Virus record (IMG/VR): IMGVR_UViG_3300047200_000344
Span: 1-22,714 of that record
Length of the DNA stretch: 22,714 bases
Source: a virus
Strand: one strand, 5' to 3'
Shown piece by piece: positions 1,541 to 19,667 of this stretch. The position numbers were made by a program, and so were the translations under genes. The notes beneath the pieces are model-generated. The model was not told the origin of the DNA. It did not search any database and was given only the letters and a program-made list of their open reading frames with translations. Within the stretch, counting starts at the first letter, position 1, and each line of letters starts with the position of its first letter.

Positions 1541-2364
1541 TATGGCACTCCATACAAATAAATAGAGCCAGTACCATTAAAACTACTGGAAACATTAACT
1601 ATCTTGACCGCATTTATTACGCCGGTGACAGTGGAAATGGCGTCTGCCGCCGTTCCTGCGCTACTGCCATTGACGCAATAATATGGTTTATTGGAGCTAG
1701 ATACGTTGGTTCTAAAGATTTCAGCAAACCCCGTGGGCGTTAAGGAGTTTGATGTTAAGTTTTGCGATGAGGAGCTATAAACGCCGCCATTATTGGAGCT
1801 AACCTGGAACACCAAGGCGCTGCTTGCGGCTGACCCTATGCCGCTAATAACAATTTTAATTGATGAATAAGCACTCAGGCCCGTAGCGGCAATTGATGTT
1901 GTGCCGTTTGTTGGGCTTAAAGTTGCCATCAAAGCCAAGCCTGTGCCGCCAGTTGCTACTGAAGAAGCCCATGTAGTGCCATTGCTGGTTAACACATTGC
2001 CGCTAGCGCCGGGCGCTACAACCTGTACCGTGTTAGTACCGTTGCCTAAAATCACGTTGTTTGCGGTCAACGTAGCGGCGTTTGTGCCACCGCTGGCAAC
2101 CCCAAGCGGCGATGACAAGCTGGCGGTTGAGTTTGTAATAGACGCAGCGTTAATGGTTCCGCCCGTAATGGTCACGTTAGAGCTAGACAGCGATACGTTG
2201 GAAATAGCACCGCCGGTAATAGACACGTTGGCTAGGCTGTTGGTGCCATTGCCAATGCCGTTTACCCCGTTCACTACCGTGGTAAAATTGTTGTCCAACT
2301 GCGACAACGGAATAGACGTTGTAGCGCCGGCAAACGTGTTTGGGATCGTGATTGGCAGTGCCAT
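1540..2364 (-). CDS. Tail fibre / appendage protein
   Basis: 274 residues, very rich in Ser, Thr, Asn and Gly. It starts with MALPITIPNTFAGATTSIPL and LSQLDNNFTTV, a typical fibre N-terminus used for attachment. It continues with short beta-helical repeats (LANVSITGGAISNVSLSS, NVTITGGTINAASI), then the common fibre linker GVASGGTNA...NNVILGNGTNTVQ..SGNVLTSNGTTW, then a C-terminal beta-rich domain ending SIYLYGVP. Such proteins sit on the short tail and contact the host surface. The start overlaps the stop of the nozzle-like gene by 1 nt. No enzymatic (depolymerase) motif is visible. The C-terminal domain, from about residue 145, is the likely variable receptor-binding part. Confidence 0.8.
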   Translation of the reverse strand: MALPITIPNTFAGATTSIPLSQLDNNFTTVVNGVNGIGNGTNSLANVSITGGAISNVSLSSSNVTITGGTINAASITNSTASLSSPLGVASGGTNAATLTANNVILGNGTNTVQVVAPGASGNVLTSNGTTWASSVATGGTGLALMATLSPTNGTTSIAATGLSAYSSIKIVISGIGSAASSALVFQVSSNNGGVYSSSSQNLTSNSLTPTGFAEIFRTNVSSSNKPYYCVNGSSAGTAADAISTVTGVINAVKIVNVSSSFNGTGSIYLYGVP

Positions 2365-4301
2365 TAGAACCTAGCCCTCAGTTCATATTCGAGTTCAAGA
2401 GTGTTTAACGTAAACAAAGCGTTAGACGCCGTAATCGTCAAACCTAGGTACTTGCCATATTGCTGGGCATCGCTCTTGTAAAGCGTGTACCCATTGTTAA
2501 ACCAGTTTATAGTGGCGTTGCTGTTATTTGTCCACGCAATCGTGGTTCCGGCGTTGTTCAGCCAATTGGTGTACGAAACGGCAATGCCGGTGGCGCTGGA
2601 TTTTATCTCGCTGTCGATTGTGACGCCAAACGTGCCAATGGTGGTTGTTGTAACCTCAATAGCCGCCTTTAGAGCCTGCTTGTCCCTGATGGGATCACTC
2701 ATGGGCCACAATGCGCTGCGGATGGTCACGTTACCGCCCGCCGTGCTGCTGTTGTACAGTTTGTAAAGATCCGTGCTGGTTGTGCCATACAGGCTGATAA
2801 CGCCGCTGGACGGAACGCTGGTTACATAGTTAAGCGTGCCTTGCGACGTAAAGAACCACCGCTTGTCAAAAAACACGGCTTGGATTGGTCGCGCGCTAGA
2901 CAACGGATCGTTGTAAGTAAACGACCAAGCGGCACACAAAATGTTGTTGAGCAACACCTGGCCGCCCGTTACCGGCTGGGTAAAATCAATCAACGGGAAT
3001 ATGGCATCAAGCTCGTTGCTCAGCTTAGTTGTGGTGCTGCCCACCAAAGCATAAATGCCGTAGTCGTTCATAAACAACACCGACCGGAAATACGGGAAAA
3101 TAGCCATATTGCGTTTGGTGCCCACCGACGCCGTGACGTTGGTGTTAGTAAAGATTGTAGTGCCGCTTGTTTGCACGCGAACATCTGAAAACACGTTGAT
3201 GCTGTTGTCGCCAAACACATACAGGAAATTGTTAGCCGAGAGCAGCGCCGTAATGTTGTTGTGCAGCGTCTCGTCTTGGATGTTAATGTTGCCGGCGCTT
3301 ACGCTCACAAAATCATTATAGCTAGCCGCCGCCGAGTAATAAACCGTGCGCCCTTGCGCCACCCACGCGCGGCCAGAAAACGTACTTACATCCACAGTGG
3401 TATCAGTGGTTGCTACCGCCGTAGCAATGGCTGCGCCTGTGCTAAACGCAATAGTGGGCGGCGAGGTATAACCCGTGCCGTTGTTGCTAAAGATTAAGCC
3501 CACAACCGCGTTGCCAGACACAATAGCCGTGGCTGCGGCGTTAGTGCCTCCACCGCCCGTTATGGTGACCGTGGGAGCCGATGAATAACCAGTGCCACCG
3601 CTCAGCACATACGCGCCCACAGTGCCCTGTGCGAAGCTCAGCGTGCTTACTACGGCGTTAGCGCCAGAACCGCCGCCGCCAGTAAACGTTACCGTGGGAG
3701 GCGACGTGTAACCCGTGCCAGCTTCAGTAAACAACAGCCCGCTTACGGCGTTGGCCGTCATCACTGCTTGGGCTACAGCCTGAATGCCGCCCGTCTCATT
3801 GGGCGCGGTAATAGCAACCGATGGAGGTGACGTGTAACCCGATCCGCGGTCAACCATGCCGTAAGCCGAAATTGAGCCAATAGACACTACGTTAGTGCCG
3901 TCCCAATTAAACAAACCCTTAACGGTATCTGCGATCAAAATTCGATCGGTTTTCCACTGAGCAATACGCACGCCAGAAGCCGAAAATTTACTGGCAGCAG
4001 CAACCGTGCCTGTGGCGCCCGTATCCACCCGATAATACTGAGCGCCTCCGTTGGTAAAAAACGCTATGATATAATCAACGTTTTTGACGTTGCAGTTATA
4101 CAACGCAGACGGCGTGCCAGACCAAGTAAACAAACTGGCGCTTTGCGCGCCCAACGCTTTAATGTTGCCAAACCCAATGGGCTGAACATTCTCAAGCCAA
4201 GCAAATTGATCGGTATCAATGGCCGTGCGGTTAGCTTGGGTATTTACACCCTTAAAGTTTTTAACGACCTGATAAGATTTCTTTTGCTCAGCCGCGGCCA
4301 T
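2364..4301 (-). CDS. Tail nozzle-like / stabilisation protein with four-repeat insertion
   Basis: 645 residues. The N-terminal part (VVKNFKGVNTQANRTAID..QFAWLENVQPIGFG) has the look of P22 gp10/SU10-type nozzle proteins, which are beta-propellers that extend the short tail below the adaptor; the repeating hydrophobic strands between 60 and 145 and from 310 onward fit this. Residues about 153-300 contain four copies of a roughly 40-residue unit (GSGYTSPPSVAIT, GTGYTSPPTVTFT, GTGYSSAPTVTIT, GTGYTSPPTIAFS), spaced 42, 41 and 39 residues apart. They appear inserted into the propeller. Position directly after the adaptor gene supports the tail role. The exact homologue is not certain. Confidence 0.75.
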   Translation of the reverse strand: MAAAEQKKSYQVVKNFKGVNTQANRTAIDTDQFAWLENVQPIGFGNIKALGAQSASLFTWSGTPSALYNCNVKNVDYIIAFFTNGGAQYYRVDTGATGTVAAASKFSASGVRIAQWKTDRILIADTVKGLFNWDGTNVVSIGSISAYGMVDRGSGYTSPPSVAITAPNETGGIQAVAQAVMTANAVSGLLFTEAGTGYTSPPTVTFTGGGGSGANAVVSTLSFAQGTVGAYVLSGGTGYSSAPTVTITGGGGTNAAATAIVSGNAVVGLIFSNNGTGYTSPPTIAFSTGAAIATAVATTDTTVDVSTFSGRAWVAQGRTVYYSAAASYNDFVSVSAGNINIQDETLHNNITALLSANNFLYVFGDNSINVFSDVRVQTSGTTIFTNTNVTASVGTKRNMAIFPYFRSVLFMNDYGIYALVGSTTTKLSNELDAIFPLIDFTQPVTGGQVLLNNILCAAWSFTYNDPLSSARPIQAVFFDKRWFFTSQGTLNYVTSVPSSGVISLYGTTSTDLYKLYNSSTAGGNVTIRSALWPMSDPIRDKQALKAAIEVTTTTIGTFGVTIDSEIKSSATGIAVSYTNWLNNAGTTIAWTNNSNATINWFNNGYTLYKSDAQQYGKYLGLTITASNALFTLNTLELEYELRARF

Positions 4302-4302
4302 A

Positions 4303-4938
4303 TTAGAACCCTGAGCCGTAGGCGTCGGGAATCCGACGCGTAAAGCTGGTATTAATCACCGACAAGGCTTTGGCCTTGTATTGGTTTAAAAATATCTCAG
4401 ACTCACCGTAAGACTGCTCTTTAAACTTAGCCGTGTGGCAAGCGTAATACGGCACCGGATCCGTCCACGGGCTAATAATGGCATCCACATCCGTTGTGTT
4501 GACCAAAGCCGTGGGCAGGATAATTGTATCCAATTCCATCTCGTAAACTTGGTCAGGAATTGGGCTAATATAAAAAGACTGCTGCCCATACACCGAAAAC
4601 GCAATTGGCCTGCCAATGTAGTTCTGCCAGAACCGCAACTCGGCGTTAAACTGTGTCCAAGGCAGGTAACGCAGCGGAATGCGCGTATTGCCCCAGTACA
4701 AATTGATGTTGAGGATGTCCATCGTCTGAATGCCGCTTGGAAGCGCGCTAAATTGATAGACTTCTTGGCTTGTGACCGTATTTACGGTCTGGATGGTGCG
4801 CAAGCAACCCGTATCGCGCACCAGCCGCTCACGCGCGGCGTTGATGTAGTCGGTTAACTCGCTGTCAGACCAAAAGTTGGCGTTTGCGTCATGCAAAAGC
4901 CGCCTGCACTGCGTAATGTAAGTCTGAAGGGTAGCCAT
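4303..4938 (-). CDS. Head-to-tail adaptor protein
   Basis: 211 residues. The N-terminal helix-rich segment (ITQCRRLLHDANANFWSDSELTDYINAARERLVRDTGC) is the recognisable hallmark of P22 gp4/SU10-type adaptors: a conserved FWSD.EL..YIN.AR..L pattern that docks under the portal ring. The middle part is beta-rich (EVYQFSALPSGIQTMDIL, FYISPIPDQVYEMELDTI), and the C-terminus has a helical YYACHTAKF..QSYGES..FL..Y motif also typical of the family. GGAGAG lies just before the ATG. The gene lies between head genes and the nozzle-like gene, the expected place. The protein would close the portal exit and bind the nozzle. Confidence 0.8.
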   Translation of the reverse strand: MATLQTYITQCRRLLHDANANFWSDSELTDYINAARERLVRDTGCLRTIQTVNTVTSQEVYQFSALPSGIQTMDILNINLYWGNTRIPLRYLPWTQFNAELRFWQNYIGRPIAFSVYGQQSFYISPIPDQVYEMELDTIILPTALVNTTDVDAIISPWTDPVPYYACHTAKFKEQSYGESEIFLNQYKAKALSVINTSFTRRIPDAYGSGF

Positions 4939-10913: not shown

Positions 10914-11299
10914 TTCAGCTGTTCCTTCAAAGTGGGCGCCATGTAATTCGCCCGGTTTTTTAATCCCACATTCAGACGGATTTGCCCGTCCACAACTTGC
11001 AGTCCAACGCTTGGCCGCATGTCCAACACAGGCTCCCGCCTATACCTAATTGCCTTTGTGCGGTTGGGGCGCATGTAAACCTCAATCATGCCCGCCTCCC
11101 ACTCATGCGCAAACTTGCTTAGCGACGATTGCACCCAGTCTTGCATGGGGCGGTTGCCACGCCTCGCCACCTCTTCCAGCGTTTTCTTAGAAACGCCGGT
11201 AAAATCCACCAGCAACTCCATGCTGATGCCGCGGTCCTTGTCCGCCCAAAACCGGCGGAACCACTCAATCAATTCCCGCTTCGGCCTAAGCGCAAACAT
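10910..11299 (-). CDS. Hypothetical protein after large terminase
   Basis: 129 residues from an ATG that overlaps the TerL stop (TGATG); a GTG one codon earlier is an alternative. The N-terminal half is basic and helical (LRPKRELIEWFRRFWADKDR, ISMELLVDFTGVSKKTLEEV), with a possible helix-turn-helix around VDFTGVSKKTLEEVARRG. The C-terminal half has strands (GLQVVDGQIRLNVGLKNRANY). A DNA-binding or packaging accessory role is possible because of the HTH-like segment and its place in the terminase operon. No family is recognised with confidence. It overlaps the next gene by 4 nt. Confidence 0.7.
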   Translation of the reverse strand: MFALRPKRELIEWFRRFWADKDRGISMELLVDFTGVSKKTLEEVARRGNRPMQDWVQSSLSKFAHEWEAGMIEVYMRPNRTKAIRYRREPVLDMRPSVGLQVVDGQIRLNVGLKNRANYMAPTLKEQLK

Positions 11300-13059
11300 C
11301 ACATACCCAGCCCAATGTTCTTGAGGTACTTGCTCACTACCGTGCGCTCCCGCCCGCGCTCTTCGGCATCCAACTCATCCAAAGCCCGGTTGCGCAGCTT
11401 GGTCAGGCCCATGGCTATCAACCGCGGCTGCAACTGCTCAGCATACGCCGCCGCCGCCAACGCCGCAGCAATCACACGGTCATCCTTGCCGCGGCCAGAA
11501 GCCGCAATAGTGCCGTCCTGCCGCGTTACCGTCTTCATCTCATCCAGCGTATCCATGGATTTTACAATGAGCATCCCGCGCTCAAAATAATCCTTGAAGT
11601 AGTTCAGCATCCGCTCCTTGCTAGCCGAGGTGGTTACCCAGCCAATGCTATTAGACAGCCCGCCCAGCGTATCGTTCTTGCGCCAAATGTAATTTTGCAT
11701 GTGGCCCAGCACGTTCATCAAACTGGTGCCGTCTTTGCCGCCCATGGCAACCGCCTGACGCTTCAAATTCCGCAACTCATTGATGACGGCCTGGCCGGGA
11801 CCATTCACTTCCAGATTAAGAATGCTGTTCTTGTACGCACCGCCCAAATGGCTAATCACCCACGCAAACTGGTAGGTGTTCAACTCGCTCGTAGCAAACT
11901 CAGCCACTTGCTCCATGCCGTCCGAGTAGCAACGAAACACCTGAATGCAAAAGCGGTCAGCCCAATCGCTACTGCCATAAGCAGGATCGGCACCAATAAC
12001 ATAATACCCATTGTCTACCGGCTCTTCCCAAATGCTCAGCGTTGCCAGACGCTCCTGAGATTTCATAACCTCAGTGTCCTGAAACAACTGCCCCATCACA
12101 TAGCGATAGTAATCCGGCTTGATGGCCTTGGCAGCCTTAGCAGCATCCGTGCAACGCGATGTGCTGAAAAACGAAGTGCCCGACATGATGAACGCATAGT
12201 CTTCTGTCGGCGGAAATTCCTGATACATCAACGCATCGTCCTTGATGCCCTCTGCCAGCTTCCACCGCCACCAAGCCATTTGCCGGCTGTTAATCTCAAA
12301 GCCGTAGAGCTTCTTAATATCCCTGACCCACTCCTTCTCTTCCGGGGTCAGTCTTCCATCCCAATATGTTTTATATACCGCCGTCTCTGGGTCTGCGGTG
12401 TAAAACTCGTTTCTCCACCAACCGCAAAAGATGGCCCTCTGCGTGCGAGCTTTTTTGGACGTGACATACATATCATGGAACAGGTTGAAGCCTCGCGCAG
12501 TGCTCTCAAACATGTACAGCCTGTCCGGGTTGGTCTCAGCCAGCGAAGCCAGCAAGGACGCCAAACCCTCTTCATCGCCCCATGAACTCGTCTCCGTGCC
12601 GTGTAGGTAAGTGATAGCCTTACCGCGCCCCAAGCTGCCCTTAGCCCGTAAGCCAGCCACCTGGTAAAACAACCGACTGCGGTTCTTCAGCAACAACTGG
12701 TTCCGGTTATGCCCCTCCATCGGAATCTTGTACTGCCGCGGCAGATGCTCAAAATACATCCCCAAGGTGGACCGGAACATCTCACGGTTTTCCTCAGTGT
12801 CCGTCACAAGCGTTGCACCCAAACCAGGATGCGTAAACACCCAATACAAATCCAGCGCCAAGCTAATCGTGGTCACGCCAAGCTGCCGGCCCTTCAAAAT
12901 CGTAAAAAAATGCACGTCCTCTTCTAGCCCACGCGCAATCTCGTTCATCACATACGTCTGCGTGCCCAACAGCTTGTCCAGCCGCTGCAAGCCCTTCTCC
13001 TTCGTCTCAATCTGCAACTGAGAGCAAAATTGATAGAACTTCTTGAGGTCAAACTTCAC
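11299..13059 (-). CDS. terL: Terminase large subunit
   Basis: 586 residues from a GTG start with AGGGG about 9 nt upstream. The ATPase domain shows a Walker-A-like ILKGRQLGVTT (about 54-64), a degenerate Walker B ending in E156 (ITYLHGTETSSW; the usual Asp before the catalytic Glu is replaced by Thr) and the coupling motif FESTARG (184-190). The nuclease domain starts with VIGADPAYG (D358), followed by NLEVNGPG and a late DDRVIAAALAAAAYA acidic motif, as in RNase-H-like terminase nucleases. It would cut and pump DNA into the head through the portal. It heads the packaging/structural operon. Confidence 0.92.
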   Translation of the reverse strand: MKFDLKKFYQFCSQLQIETKEKGLQRLDKLLGTQTYVMNEIARGLEEDVHFFTILKGRQLGVTTISLALDLYWVFTHPGLGATLVTDTEENREMFRSTLGMYFEHLPRQYKIPMEGHNRNQLLLKNRSRLFYQVAGLRAKGSLGRGKAITYLHGTETSSWGDEEGLASLLASLAETNPDRLYMFESTARGFNLFHDMYVTSKKARTQRAIFCGWWRNEFYTADPETAVYKTYWDGRLTPEEKEWVRDIKKLYGFEINSRQMAWWRWKLAEGIKDDALMYQEFPPTEDYAFIMSGTSFFSTSRCTDAAKAAKAIKPDYYRYVMGQLFQDTEVMKSQERLATLSIWEEPVDNGYYVIGADPAYGSSDWADRFCIQVFRCYSDGMEQVAEFATSELNTYQFAWVISHLGGAYKNSILNLEVNGPGQAVINELRNLKRQAVAMGGKDGTSLMNVLGHMQNYIWRKNDTLGGLSNSIGWVTTSASKERMLNYFKDYFERGMLIVKSMDTLDEMKTVTRQDGTIAASGRGKDDRVIAAALAAAAYAEQLQPRLIAMGLTKLRNRALDELDAEERGRERTVVSKYLKNIGLGM

Positions 13060-13459: not shown

Positions 13460-13478
13460 ACGTTATAACGTATATATA
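13460..13478. promoter_or_regulatory. Palindromic operator-like site and AT-rich element before HTH gene
   Basis: The perfect 12-bp palindrome ACGTTATAACGT (13460-13471) merges into the 14-mer ATAACGTATATATA (13465-13478). Leftward, TATAAC could serve as a -10 box for the HTH/terminase operon, about 25 nt before its GTG. The same 14-mer recurs at 17669-17682, and its ATAACG half-site recurs at 13745-13890, which points to a protein binding site. Binding by the adjacent HTH protein is inference. Confidence 0.45.
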
Positions 13479-13930: not shown

Positions 13931-13946
13931 ACGCGCGTGCGCGCGT
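13931..13946. other. Alternating CG inverted repeat
   Basis: ACGCGCG-TG-CGCGCGT is a perfect 7-bp inverted repeat of almost pure alternating purine/pyrimidine, prone to form a cruciform or left-handed helix. The flanks (13920-14010) are AT-rich, including TTAACAATGTTTAATAAAAT upstream of the first rightward gene. Apart from this and the operator array, I see nothing gene-like in 13438-14072. Confidence 0.4.
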
Positions 13947-14015
13947 AGCAAGATGCGTGCCAAGTAGGGCGCCTCAAAGATTAACAATGTTTAATAAAAT
14001 AGCTCTTGCAATGAT

Positions 14016-16715: not shown

Positions 16716-16942
16716 TACTGCCCACGCGCAAGCTAGTGACAACCGCGGCCGGGCTGGCGATAGCGTCATGCCTGGCCGCAAGCTATTTATGGTGGAACGA
16801 TGATAGACGAAAAGCTCCTCACCGGCCTAGGCTGGATTGCGCCGGCTATGTGGGCGCCCATCCTAGAGGAACACATGGCGCGCGGCGGTATGACCGGCAA
16901 GCCTATCCGTGCGGCAATGGCGCTGGCCAATTTCGGGCATGA
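16712..16942 (+). CDS. Possible small lipoprotein/membrane protein overlapping endolysin
   Basis: A GTG overlaps the previous stop by 4 nt and opens 76 residues. The N-terminus MILPTRKLVTTAAGLAIASC has a basic start, hydrophobic core and an IASC lipobox-like end, then AASYLWWNDDRRK; the rest is Arg/Pro/Gly-rich (RGTHGARRYDRQAY). The last 48 codons run in a different frame over the beginning of the endolysin. A lipoprotein upstream of and overlapping an endolysin suggests a spanin-type role, but the C-terminal part may be a shadow of the endolysin's GC-rich code. If only the signal part is real, the gene is a remnant. Confidence 0.35.
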   Translation: MILPTRKLVTTAAGLAIASCLAASYLWWNDDRRKAPHRPRLDCAGYVGAHPRGTHGARRYDRQAYPCGNGAGQFRA

Positions 16943-17432
16943 AACCAATGGCGGCCGGCGGCTTATCGAAAGCCTAGACTACAGCCCTGACCGCCTGGCC
17001 GCCGTGTTTGGTGCTCGGGCCACTACGCGCGCGCTCGATGCCTGCCGCCGCGTGGGCCATCCGGCGGACCAAAAGGCCATTGCCAATGAGGTTTACGGTG
17101 GCGATTGGGGCCAGCGGAACCTTGGCAATAAGCTGCCCGGTGACGGCTTTGCTTACAGGGGGCGGGGCCTAATCCAGCTAACAGGGCGATGGTCATATGC
17201 GCGCGTGGCCGCCGTGCTCGGGAAAGAGCTCACCGACGAATGGGTGGACAGCATCGGCACGCCGGCCGGCGCGGCGGAATCCGCTTGCGTATGGTGGTCG
17301 CGCATGGGCCTTAATTTTGTGGCTGACAGCGGGGATCTAGCCAAGCTGCGCAAAGCGGTAAACGGCGGCCAGGTTGGGCTTGAAGATGTGAAGCACCGCT
17401 ATGACCAGGCCCGCGCGTTGCTGGTTGGTTAG
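16800..17432 (+). CDS. Endolysin, glycoside hydrolase family 19 (chitinase-like muramidase)
   Basis: 210 residues. The GH19 hallmarks are plain: ANFGHETNG with the catalytic Glu at about residue 48, RRLIESLDYSPDRLAAVFG, a WGQRNLGNKLPGDGFAYRGRG segment and the signature GRGLIQLTGRWSYARV (about 119-134). Phage proteins of this family cut peptidoglycan sugar chains at the end of infection. No signal peptide is visible, so release needs a holin; the holin-like gene lies far away in the leftward operon. The ATG is only weakly served by GGTGGA, and the start lies inside an out-of-frame small ORF. The C-terminus ends 19 aa after the VKHRYDQARALLVG helix region typical for this group. Confidence 0.88.
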   Translation: MIDEKLLTGLGWIAPAMWAPILEEHMARGGMTGKPIRAAMALANFGHETNGGRRLIESLDYSPDRLAAVFGARATTRALDACRRVGHPADQKAIANEVYGGDWGQRNLGNKLPGDGFAYRGRGLIQLTGRWSYARVAAVLGKELTDEWVDSIGTPAGAAESACVWWSRMGLNFVADSGDLAKLRKAVNGGQVGLEDVKHRYDQARALLVG

Positions 17433-17616: not shown

Positions 17617-17683
17617 CTAGACGATTGTAAGCACGACGCACGTAAGCACTACGATCGTCTAGGACGTGATAACGTATATATAA
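17617..17683. repeat. Inverted repeat enclosing direct repeats, with shared AT-rich 14-mer
   Basis: CTAGACGAT (17617-17625) and ATCGTCTAG (17654-17662) form a perfect 9-bp inverted repeat. Inside it GTAAGCACGACG and GTAAGCACTACG are 15-bp-spaced direct repeats (17627 and 17642). Immediately right lies ATAACGTATATATA (17669-17682), identical to 13465-13478. The composite looks like a protein-binding or recombination site; as leftward RNA it could fold into a hairpin. Confidence 0.5.
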
Positions 17684-17686
17684 GAT

Positions 17687-17703
17687 TGCAAGAACCGTGC
17701 CAG
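17687..17703 (-). promoter_or_regulatory. Sigma-54-type (-24/-12) promoter consensus, copy 1
   Basis: On the minus strand this reads CTGGCACGGTTCTTGCA, matching the published sigma-54 consensus YTGGCACGrNNNTTGCW at every defined position: GG of the -24 and GC of the -12 elements are 10 bp apart. Predicted start of a leftward RNA is near 17676, entering non-coding DNA and the 17617-17662 inverted repeat. No activator site is identified. Confidence 0.5.
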
Positions 17704-17715
17704 TCGTAGGCATGC

Positions 17716-17750
17716 AAAAGGGGCCTTCCTGAATGACCAGAAAAGCCCCT
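17716..17750 (-). terminator. Second leftward Rho-independent terminator
   Basis: In the leftward RNA, AGGGGC-TTTTCTG pairs with CAGGAAG-GCCCCT (13 pairs, two of them G-U) around a 6-nt loop and is followed by UUUU. On the opposite strand the G-U pairs become C-A mismatches, so the structure is built for leftward transcription. It backs up the terminator at 17785-17826. Confidence 0.65.
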
Positions 17751-17751
17751 A

Positions 17752-17768
17752 TGCAAGAACCGTGCCAG
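17752..17768 (-). promoter_or_regulatory. Sigma-54-type (-24/-12) promoter consensus, copy 2
   Basis: An identical 17-bp copy of CTGGCACGGTTCTTGCA, 65 bp from copy 1 and in the same orientation. Its predicted start near 17741 falls in the left arm of the second terminator hairpin. Copies 1 and 2 bracket that hairpin. Whether they are promoters or another protein's binding sites needs experiment. Confidence 0.45.
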
Positions 17769-17784: not shown

Positions 17785-17826
17785 AAAAAAAGCCTTCGCA
17801 AAGCCCGCGGGCGTCACACTGCGAAG
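17785..17826 (-). terminator. Leftward Rho-independent terminator of methyltransferase operon
   Basis: In leftward RNA, CUUCGCA (17826-17820) pairs with UGCGAAG (17800-17794), with an inner GCCCGCGGGC palindrome, followed by GGC and seven U (17791-17785). The methyltransferase stop codon (17814-17816) lies inside the loop region, so coding and terminator overlap. Confidence 0.75.
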
Positions 17827-18311
17827 CGCCGCGCGCTCGGGGCTAGGCGGTAGTTTGTGCATCTTGCTTCCCTCACTCGCTTCCACCGGGCGCTTGGGGG
17901 GGGCGTGAAGTGGCCCCATAGCAGTGTGCGCTTAGTGTAGGGATCACCATACTCTGAGGGGTCGAAAGCCATGCGAGGCTCGCCTAGGTATCGCTTCAGC
18001 CGGCCAATGGGATTCTCAAGCACCCACCATTGTGGGCGATGCACTGCGATAATCCGCATACAGGCATCAACCACAGCCAGGCCTTCTAGAATGGCCGCCT
18101 CGCCCTTGCTCTCCCAATATCGCGCGCCGCTGGCGGAGAAATGGGTGCATGGCGGGGCTGCTAGAACCCCGCGCACTGGGAACGGCAACGCCTCAAACAG
18201 TCTGACATCGCCGCCCCGCTTTATATCCACCTGCACAACGTCATAGCCGGCGTCCCGGTAGGGCTGAGACCATGACCCCGTATAATCGCACAGGCTCAAG
18301 ATGGTCATCAT
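17814..18311 (-). CDS. Small cytosine-5 DNA methyltransferase-like protein without visible target-recognition domain
   Basis: 165 residues. Motif I-like ILSLCDYTGSWSQPYRDAGY, motif II-like VVQVDIKRG, the catalytic-loop type AAPPCTHFSASGARYW (Pro-Cys at 54-55) and WWVLENPIGRL (ENP in place of ENV) are all present, followed by DPYTKRTLLWG. Full C5 methyltransferases exceed 300 residues with a target-recognition domain and motifs IX-X; those are absent here. Proteins of this short type are common in phages and mobile elements and may methylate or merely bind DNA. It overlaps the upstream gene by 4 nt and is last in its operon, ending inside a terminator. Confidence 0.75.
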   Translation of the reverse strand: MMTILSLCDYTGSWSQPYRDAGYDVVQVDIKRGGDVRLFEALPFPVRGVLAAPPCTHFSASGARYWESKGEAAILEGLAVVDACMRIIAVHRPQWWVLENPIGRLKRYLGEPRMAFDPSEYGDPYTKRTLLWGHFTPPPSARWKRVREARCTNYRLAPSARRFAV

Positions 18312-19027: not shown

Positions 19028-19133
19028 CGCCCCATTCCTTCATCACTGCCCGCCAGGACGCCGCCACAACGACCAGCCCGGCTATCAGCGCCCCTATGCA
19101 CCCGGCCATGAAAAGCCCTGCTATTGTCCACAT
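19020..19133 (-). CDS. 37-aa single-pass membrane protein
   Basis: The start is the ATG at 19133, which overlaps the stop of the upstream gene (TAATG); a longer frame reaching back to 19340 would overlap that gene for 200 nt and is rejected. The product MWTIAGLFMAGCIGALIAGL then VVVAASWRAVMKEWGDE has one long hydrophobic helix (about 3-26) and a charged tail. Its stop overlaps the next gene's start. Miniature membrane proteins in phage replication operons are common and mostly uncharacterised; a role in superinfection exclusion or membrane anchoring is guesswork. Confidence 0.6.
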   Translation of the reverse strand: MWTIAGLFMAGCIGALIAGLVVVAASWRAVMKEWGDE

Positions 19134-19612
19134 TAAAACATCTCCTCCGCGCTGGATTCCACGATGGGCTGCACGCGGCGGGCTAGGTCTTCCCGGTTGC
19201 CCACGGCTAGGTCTTTCGGCTGGAAAAGCCCAGCCCAGCCATTCTCTATGCTCTGCTGGATAACCGCCCGCGGGTCCGCACCCTGCTGCCAATAGGTTTC
19301 CAACCGCGCGATGGACAGTTTTTTCGCGTGCGCCGTCCAAGCCTTGCCGCTCTTAGCCTGGCGATACATGTCCCACTCAATCCACGCATCAACCGGAATG
19401 CAAGACGGTATTTCCAGCGTGGCGACAGGCTTAGAAACCCGCTGCACCGCCCGCTTGGGCTGCACGGCGCTGCCGAAAATCTCCCCCTTCAGCCCCTCTT
19501 CCAGCAATTTCCGGCCTACGCGGCTGCGGCTGTGCTCTGTGCGGCGGCAGATAGCGTCAATAGCCTCGGCTACTTCCAAAGGCACGCGGATAGGTATGGT
19601 TACGCTTGACAT
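19133..19612 (-). CDS. Ribbon-helix-helix protein with replication-protein-type C-terminus
   Basis: 159 residues; the ATG at 19612 has AAAGGAC just upstream and begins MSSVTIPIRVPLEVAEAIDA. Residues 1-45 look like an RHH fold: strand VTIPIRV, helix PLEVAEAIDAICRR, turn, helix SRSRVGRKLLEEGLKG. The C-terminal part (AKKLSIARLETYWQQG, ADPRAVIQQSIENGWAGLFQ) has the ..GADP..VI..SI.NGW.GLF pattern common at the end of phage replication initiators. So it may be a DNA-binding protein that starts replication or represses its own promoter. The divergent control region lies directly upstream, with TGTGACG motifs. Confidence 0.7.
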   Translation of the reverse strand: MSSVTIPIRVPLEVAEAIDAICRRTEHSRSRVGRKLLEEGLKGEIFGSAVQPKRAVQRVSKPVATLEIPSCIPVDAWIEWDMYRQAKSGKAWTAHAKKLSIARLETYWQQGADPRAVIQQSIENGWAGLFQPKDLAVGNREDLARRVQPIVESSAEEMF

Positions 19613-19629
19613 GTGTGTCCTTTCGTTAC

Positions 19630-19667
19630 GTTGCGACGATTGCAACGGGTGTGACGTAGGGCATTAT
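19630..19667. promoter_or_regulatory. Regulatory region of the RHH operon with inverted CCGTCACA-like site
   Basis: GTTGCGACGATTGCAAC can form a small stem (GTTGC/GCAAC), followed by GGGTGTGACG, the reverse complement type of the CCGTCACA motif seen at 14016 and 17460. Rightward, TTGCAA (19640-19645) and CATTAT (19662-19667) form a weak -35/-10 pair 16 bp apart with the motif in between; leftward CATAAT overlaps the same place. A repressor here could control both directions. Confidence 0.35.

Follow-up and report, generated by a model that had tools for sequence, protein, structure and literature searches.

Genomic context and sequence of the sites

The window, meaning the whole stretch of DNA that was analysed, is a 22.7-kb viral record. 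A 17-bp element occurs twice on its minus strand, in the convergent gap between an endolysin gene that ends at 17432 (plus strand) and a DNA methyltransferase gene that ends at 17814 (minus strand), and a third, closely similar element lies nearer to the late operon. The features relevant to the three sites are as follows.

11299–13059, minus strand: terminase large subunit, in the leftward late operon
13935–13946, minus strand: GC-rich alternating tract ACGCGCGCACGC directly after site 3, conserved (18% A+T) and unfavourable for opening
13947–13963, minus strand: third sigma-54-type site (site 3), TTGGCACGCATCTTGCT, with the leftward late (terminase/structural) operon following about 0.5 kb downstream
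16800–17432, plus strand: endolysin, which ends the rightward small-gene block and converges on the site pair
17675–17686, minus strand: AT-rich tract ATCTTATATATA, the expected point of DNA opening after site 2, its AT-richness conserved
17687–17703, minus strand: inner sigma-54 site (site 2), CTGGCACGGTTCTTGCA, an exact copy of site 1
17719–17750, minus strand: terminator hairpin followed by a U-run, between sites 1 and 2, kept in relatives
17752–17768, minus strand: outer sigma-54 (-24/-12) site (site 1), CTGGCACGGTTCTTGCA, with a start region that enters the terminator stem
17814–18311, minus strand: DNA methyltransferase, with which the leftward replication block ends
19133–19645, minus strand: O-like replication initiation protein (phrog_678, 1e-13)

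The gene map of the window places no same-strand gene 3′ of the pair, and Rfam and tRNA searches of the window gave no match. The region had been described as a phage control region; it is instead a convergent gap between the endolysin operon (plus) and the replication-methyltransferase operon (minus), not an upstream control region.

The two copies of CTGGCACGGTTCTTGCA are exact and start 65 bp apart, as the initial annotation had stated. Its assignment to the full sigma-54 consensus is likewise borne out, with every fixed position matched, and the -24 (TGGCACG) and -12 (TTGC) elements with their 4-bp spacer are present at all three sites, site 3 differing from the consensus solely at the weak purine position. 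Three matches to YTGGCACGRNNNTTGCW at up to one mismatch are found in the window against 0.09 expected from dinucleotide shuffles, none of the 100 shuffles reaching three; for the 17-mer itself with up to two mismatches the expected count is 0.00. Minus-strand folding gives the hairpin between sites 1 and 2 an energy of -22.9 kcal/mol (z -4.6), followed by UUUU, so that the earlier call of a leftward terminator bracketed by the pair was right. The putative transcription start of site 1 falls inside the stem of this terminator. Neither an NtrC consensus (at up to one mismatch) nor a Fur site is present in the window. A 19-bp repeat, ACGTkATAACGTATATATA, occurs both in the late-operon region (13460–13478) and just after site 2 (17664–17682).

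Conservation in related viruses

In related IMG/VR contigs the pair is retained around the hairpin with a spacing of 64–67 bp. Variation is seen at n1 and the outermost bases, and the GG and GC elements are invariant, the reverse of the pattern (17-mer kept, GG/GC lost) that the initial annotation had set against its own reading. In the alignment of site 2, which is partly circular given that loci were picked for having a site, the core varies at n1 and the outer base alone; the neighbouring columns vary, and the bases after the core change and carry indels. Across 20 relative contigs the strict pattern is almost confined to the two regions of the sites and nearly always lies on the late-operon strand, and a reversed-control pattern gives one match in all 20 together. 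In most relatives a few bases separate the outer site from the end of the gene before it. L017 and L032 have an insert of about 0.4 kb between the two sites, both of which are kept, and a single copy remains in L031, as if the two repeats had recombined. A few relatives with a close endolysin (L034 and L036) no longer have any gap there, so that the pair is common and not universal. In relatives, the interval that separates site 2 from the endolysin is well conserved; a structured RNA within it was considered as a main explanation and rejected, covariation being weak on both strands.

The mean A+T content of the start region in relatives is 86% for site 2, 50% for site 1 and 18% for site 3, with the sites sorted by a simple text rule that agrees with the alignments. 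On these values site 2, the inner site, looks able to open and could still serve as a promoter, its AT-rich start region being conserved; site 1 overlaps the stem of the terminator. Site 3 is oriented toward the leftward structural operon. The alternating CG tract that follows it (13935–13946, also seen in relatives) is a possible Z-DNA former, and similar CG tracts follow the array ends in two other viral contigs (L193 and L121).

Arrays of sigma-54 sites in unrelated phages

The exact 17-mer is also found in unrelated viral contigs, where further copies lie nearby. Two sigma-54 cores 5–35 bp apart are present in at least 119 stretches of viral DNA, against 0 for the reversed pattern used as control, and 41 viral stretches carry three cores in a row. 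Once related flanks were removed, 92 arrays of 2–12 sites each were left. At the 366 array sites the bases outside the search pattern follow the sigma-54 consensus: a pyrimidine precedes TGG in 84%, a purine follows CACG in 72%, and A or T follows TTGC in 83%. The commonest same-strand spacing is 24–28 bp, and the 92 unrelated arrays show spacing peaks at 24–28, 41 and 46 bp. A clean 10.5-bp helical phasing of the arrays was rejected; it was lost after removal of related arrays, and longer periods scored equally.

By simple ORF calls, the arrays that lie between same-strand genes are oriented with the genes in nine cases and against them in nine. Divergent gaps are over-represented, holding 25 of the 57 classified arrays against 20% of intergenic length; convergent gaps hold 8 of the 57, and most others are divergent or tandem. 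Face-to-face pairs with 3–9 bp between their -12 elements were found in 90 viral stretches, of which 51 are unrelated. Two promoters facing each other at such a distance presumably cannot both fire, because each would start inside the other.

The genes nearest to the arrays include terminases and endolysins, which identifies the array contigs as real phages. No sigma-54 activator domain (PF00158) or sigma-54 DNA-binding domain (PF04552) was detected in 41 array contigs, many of them fragments; the reader of the sites must therefore be a host protein. Three deposited relatives of array phages were scanned and had no arrays. A search of deposited phages with a concatenated query was set aside, as its best matches were a Fur-box-like stretch. 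In the open-access literature no description of sigma-54 arrays in phages was found.

How far are such clusters peculiar to viruses? In 84,980 prokaryote genomes (257 Gb) there are five triples; coding or identical tandem repeats account for four, and the fifth, from a Dadabacteria assembly, appears to be genuine. No core pairs were found in 397 Pseudomonadota genomes besides the centre genome, which had been selected for its coding repeat, and face-to-face pairs number zero in 398 Pseudomonadota genomes. Single perfect sites in bacteria occur at about one per genome (60 Pseudomonadota). The collections differ in size, and so the viral and prokaryote figures are counts and not rates. Whatever their function, the sigma-54 arrays form a large class of regulatory DNA that is nearly confined to viruses.

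Function of the sites

The sigma-54 holoenzyme binds its promoters in an inactive closed state and awaits an activator (PMC4591121), and its occupancy can repress sigma-70 promoters (PMC4551910). We propose that the three minus-strand elements of the window are binding sites of the host sigma-54 (RpoN) RNA polymerase, and that most of them, like most of the phage arrays, would act mainly as silent sites. The holoenzyme would dock as a closed complex, unable to open in the absence of an activator, and replicating phage DNA would thereby soak up host sigma-54 polymerase. At the borders between modules, polymerase bound in this way may also obstruct traffic, and in the family of the window the inner site 2 may additionally serve as a promoter. 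We give about an even chance to this reading of silent binding or titration, the inner site being perhaps a promoter as well. The analysis itself establishes sequence and conservation, the geometry of the arrays, their context and a near-absence from the genomes of bacteria; binding, titration and any effect on infection or benefit to the phage are inferred.

An E. coli cell holds about a hundred copies of sigma-54. With three sites per genome, a hundred copies of the phage DNA would exceed this number, which makes titration plausible even for the phage of the window and more so for the arrays. Several consensus sites lie in non-coding DNA (three in the window, 2–12 in the arrays), and their placement is unlike that of promoters, as seen in the 9:9 orientation, the 51 face-to-face pairs and, for the pair in the window, the convergent gap. 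Against titration stand the presence of three sites and no long array in the window, the fixed spacing (64–67 bp) and orientation in its family, the promoter-like AT-rich start of site 2, the enrichment of arrays in divergent gaps, where promoters also sit, and the close deposited relatives of array phages that have no arrays. The clusters in many unrelated phages, almost never seen in bacteria, suggest that host sigma-54 is tied up or tapped through them. A broader reading, which we hold more tentatively and think somewhat less probable than its opposite, is that clusters of decoys for sigma-54 polymerase, some with NtrC and Fur palindromes beside them, have arisen independently in many unrelated tailed phages, such that the phage DNA itself, with no protein involved, would disarm nitrogen, envelope or motility programmes of the host.

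The sites might instead be true sigma-54 promoters. A leftward transcript from site 2 (perhaps also from site 1) would then run antisense to the endolysin block and site 3 would drive the late structural operon, under a host activator that responds to nitrogen or envelope stress. The conserved 86% A+T in the start region of site 2 fits this, as do the common direction of all the sites, with site 3 facing the late operon, and the NtrC-type palindromes beside sigma-54 sites in some other phages (L006 and L206). However, the start of site 1 lies in the terminator stem and that of site 3 in GC-rich DNA, the pair is followed by no same-strand gene and no convincing RNA, and the window has no NtrC site, the sole type of activator site scanned for. 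We put this at perhaps one chance in four. The initial annotation had read both members of the pair as sigma-54 promoter sites that may give a leftward transcript. As sigma-54 (-24/-12) elements they stand, given the kept GG and GC and the flanking consensus in the arrays; that both of them start such a transcript is not supported, in view of the buried start of site 1, the lack of a same-strand gene, of a convincingly covarying RNA and of an NtrC site, and the placement and packing of the same element in the arrays of other phages, which are unlike those of ordinary promoters.

The bracketing of a terminator in a convergent gap would also suit a roadblock or insulator, in which sigma-54 polymerase, closed at the junction, reinforces the terminator and keeps the two operons from colliding, and silent holoenzyme occupancy can indeed repress other promoters (PMC4551910). 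We consider this unlikely, as arrays elsewhere are mostly divergent or tandem, with just 8 of 57 classified ones convergent, and site 3 is not at a terminator. Still less probable is that the elements belong to another protein, for instance as iterons or as packaging or partition sites, and match the sigma-54 consensus by chance. The regular 24–28 bp arrays do look iteron-like, and the genes closest to the arrays include terminases; nevertheless, the exact sigma-54 consensus recurs in unrelated phages whose terminases and replication genes differ, also at positions that the search pattern did not cover, and close relatives of array phages lack the sites. A weak sigma-70 promoter overlapping site 2 can be read from the sequence at 17674–17703 (CTGGCA, 17 bp, TATATA), but it would leave the conserved TTCTTGC and sites 1 and 3 unexplained, and a scan for sigma-70 sites found none; we regard it as very improbable.

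Comparison with known systems

Measured against the sigma-54 (RpoN) -24/-12 promoter, YTGGCACGRNNNTTGCW, the window shares all fixed positions, both elements and the spacing, and the inner site also has the AT-rich start. It departs from such a promoter in lacking an NtrC site and a same-strand gene after the pair, and in the GC-rich start of site 3; the other phages depart from it in their arrays and face-to-face pairs. The closest parallel to silent binding is offered by the silent and intragenic sigma-54 sites of E. coli (PMC4591121) and by repression through occupancy (PMC4551910), in which the holoenzyme binds sites that are not promoters, as we infer for the phage sites. A decoy function has been suggested as one possibility for the E. 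coli silent sites. Those are scattered singles in the chromosome, whereas the phage sites are non-coding, repeated and carried on phage DNA. Synthetic decoys that titrate regulators (PMC7826281) likewise use repeated sites for one regulator on DNA that can reach high copy; different from them, the ligand of the putative titration by phage sites would be a sigma factor or polymerase. Phage interference with sigma-54 polymerase is known from the inhibitors Xp10 P7 (PMC5053324) and T7 Ocr (PMC7064336), which are proteins and not DNA sites.

Sigma-54 is the one bacterial sigma family that is silent on DNA, and it should therefore be unusually easy to titrate by DNA alone. If phages do titrate it, they possess a protein-free way to rewire the host. 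If the sites are promoters, late or antisense transcription of the phage would depend on host activators, a link that is likewise seldom described.

Other motifs near sigma-54 sites

NtrC-consensus palindromes, TGCACCN5GGTGCA, are interleaved with or lie beside sigma-54 sites in L006 (5494–5790), L206 (8498), L268, L300 and L323. Pairs of NtrC-type palindromes were counted in 77 viral stretches, forming 13 unrelated groups by flank, in a scan of the viral collection; L313 at least, and probably others among these groups, look like coding repeats. At 68 of the 76 NtrC-pair loci examined no sigma-54 core lies within 400 bp, and these are therefore not ordinary NtrC promoters. In the viral contig L298 (4450–4750) NtrC-like palindromes form an array with a spacing of about 48 bp, and its surroundings contain no sigma-54 core. 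Fur-box-like palindromes (AATGAGAATnATTCTCATT) are found near sigma-54 sites in L006, L009, L026, L030, L095, L102 and L134, and the Fur-like box of L095 also matches unannotated (non-coding) stretches of T5-like phages. Another palindrome, TTAGTGAGnrCTCACTAA, recurs in the same intergenic regions of L006, L027, L102, L134 and L333. In L006 the terminase large subunit (2353–4781) is apparently split by an intein-like insert, with minus-strand ORFs at 2353–3798 and 3789–4781.
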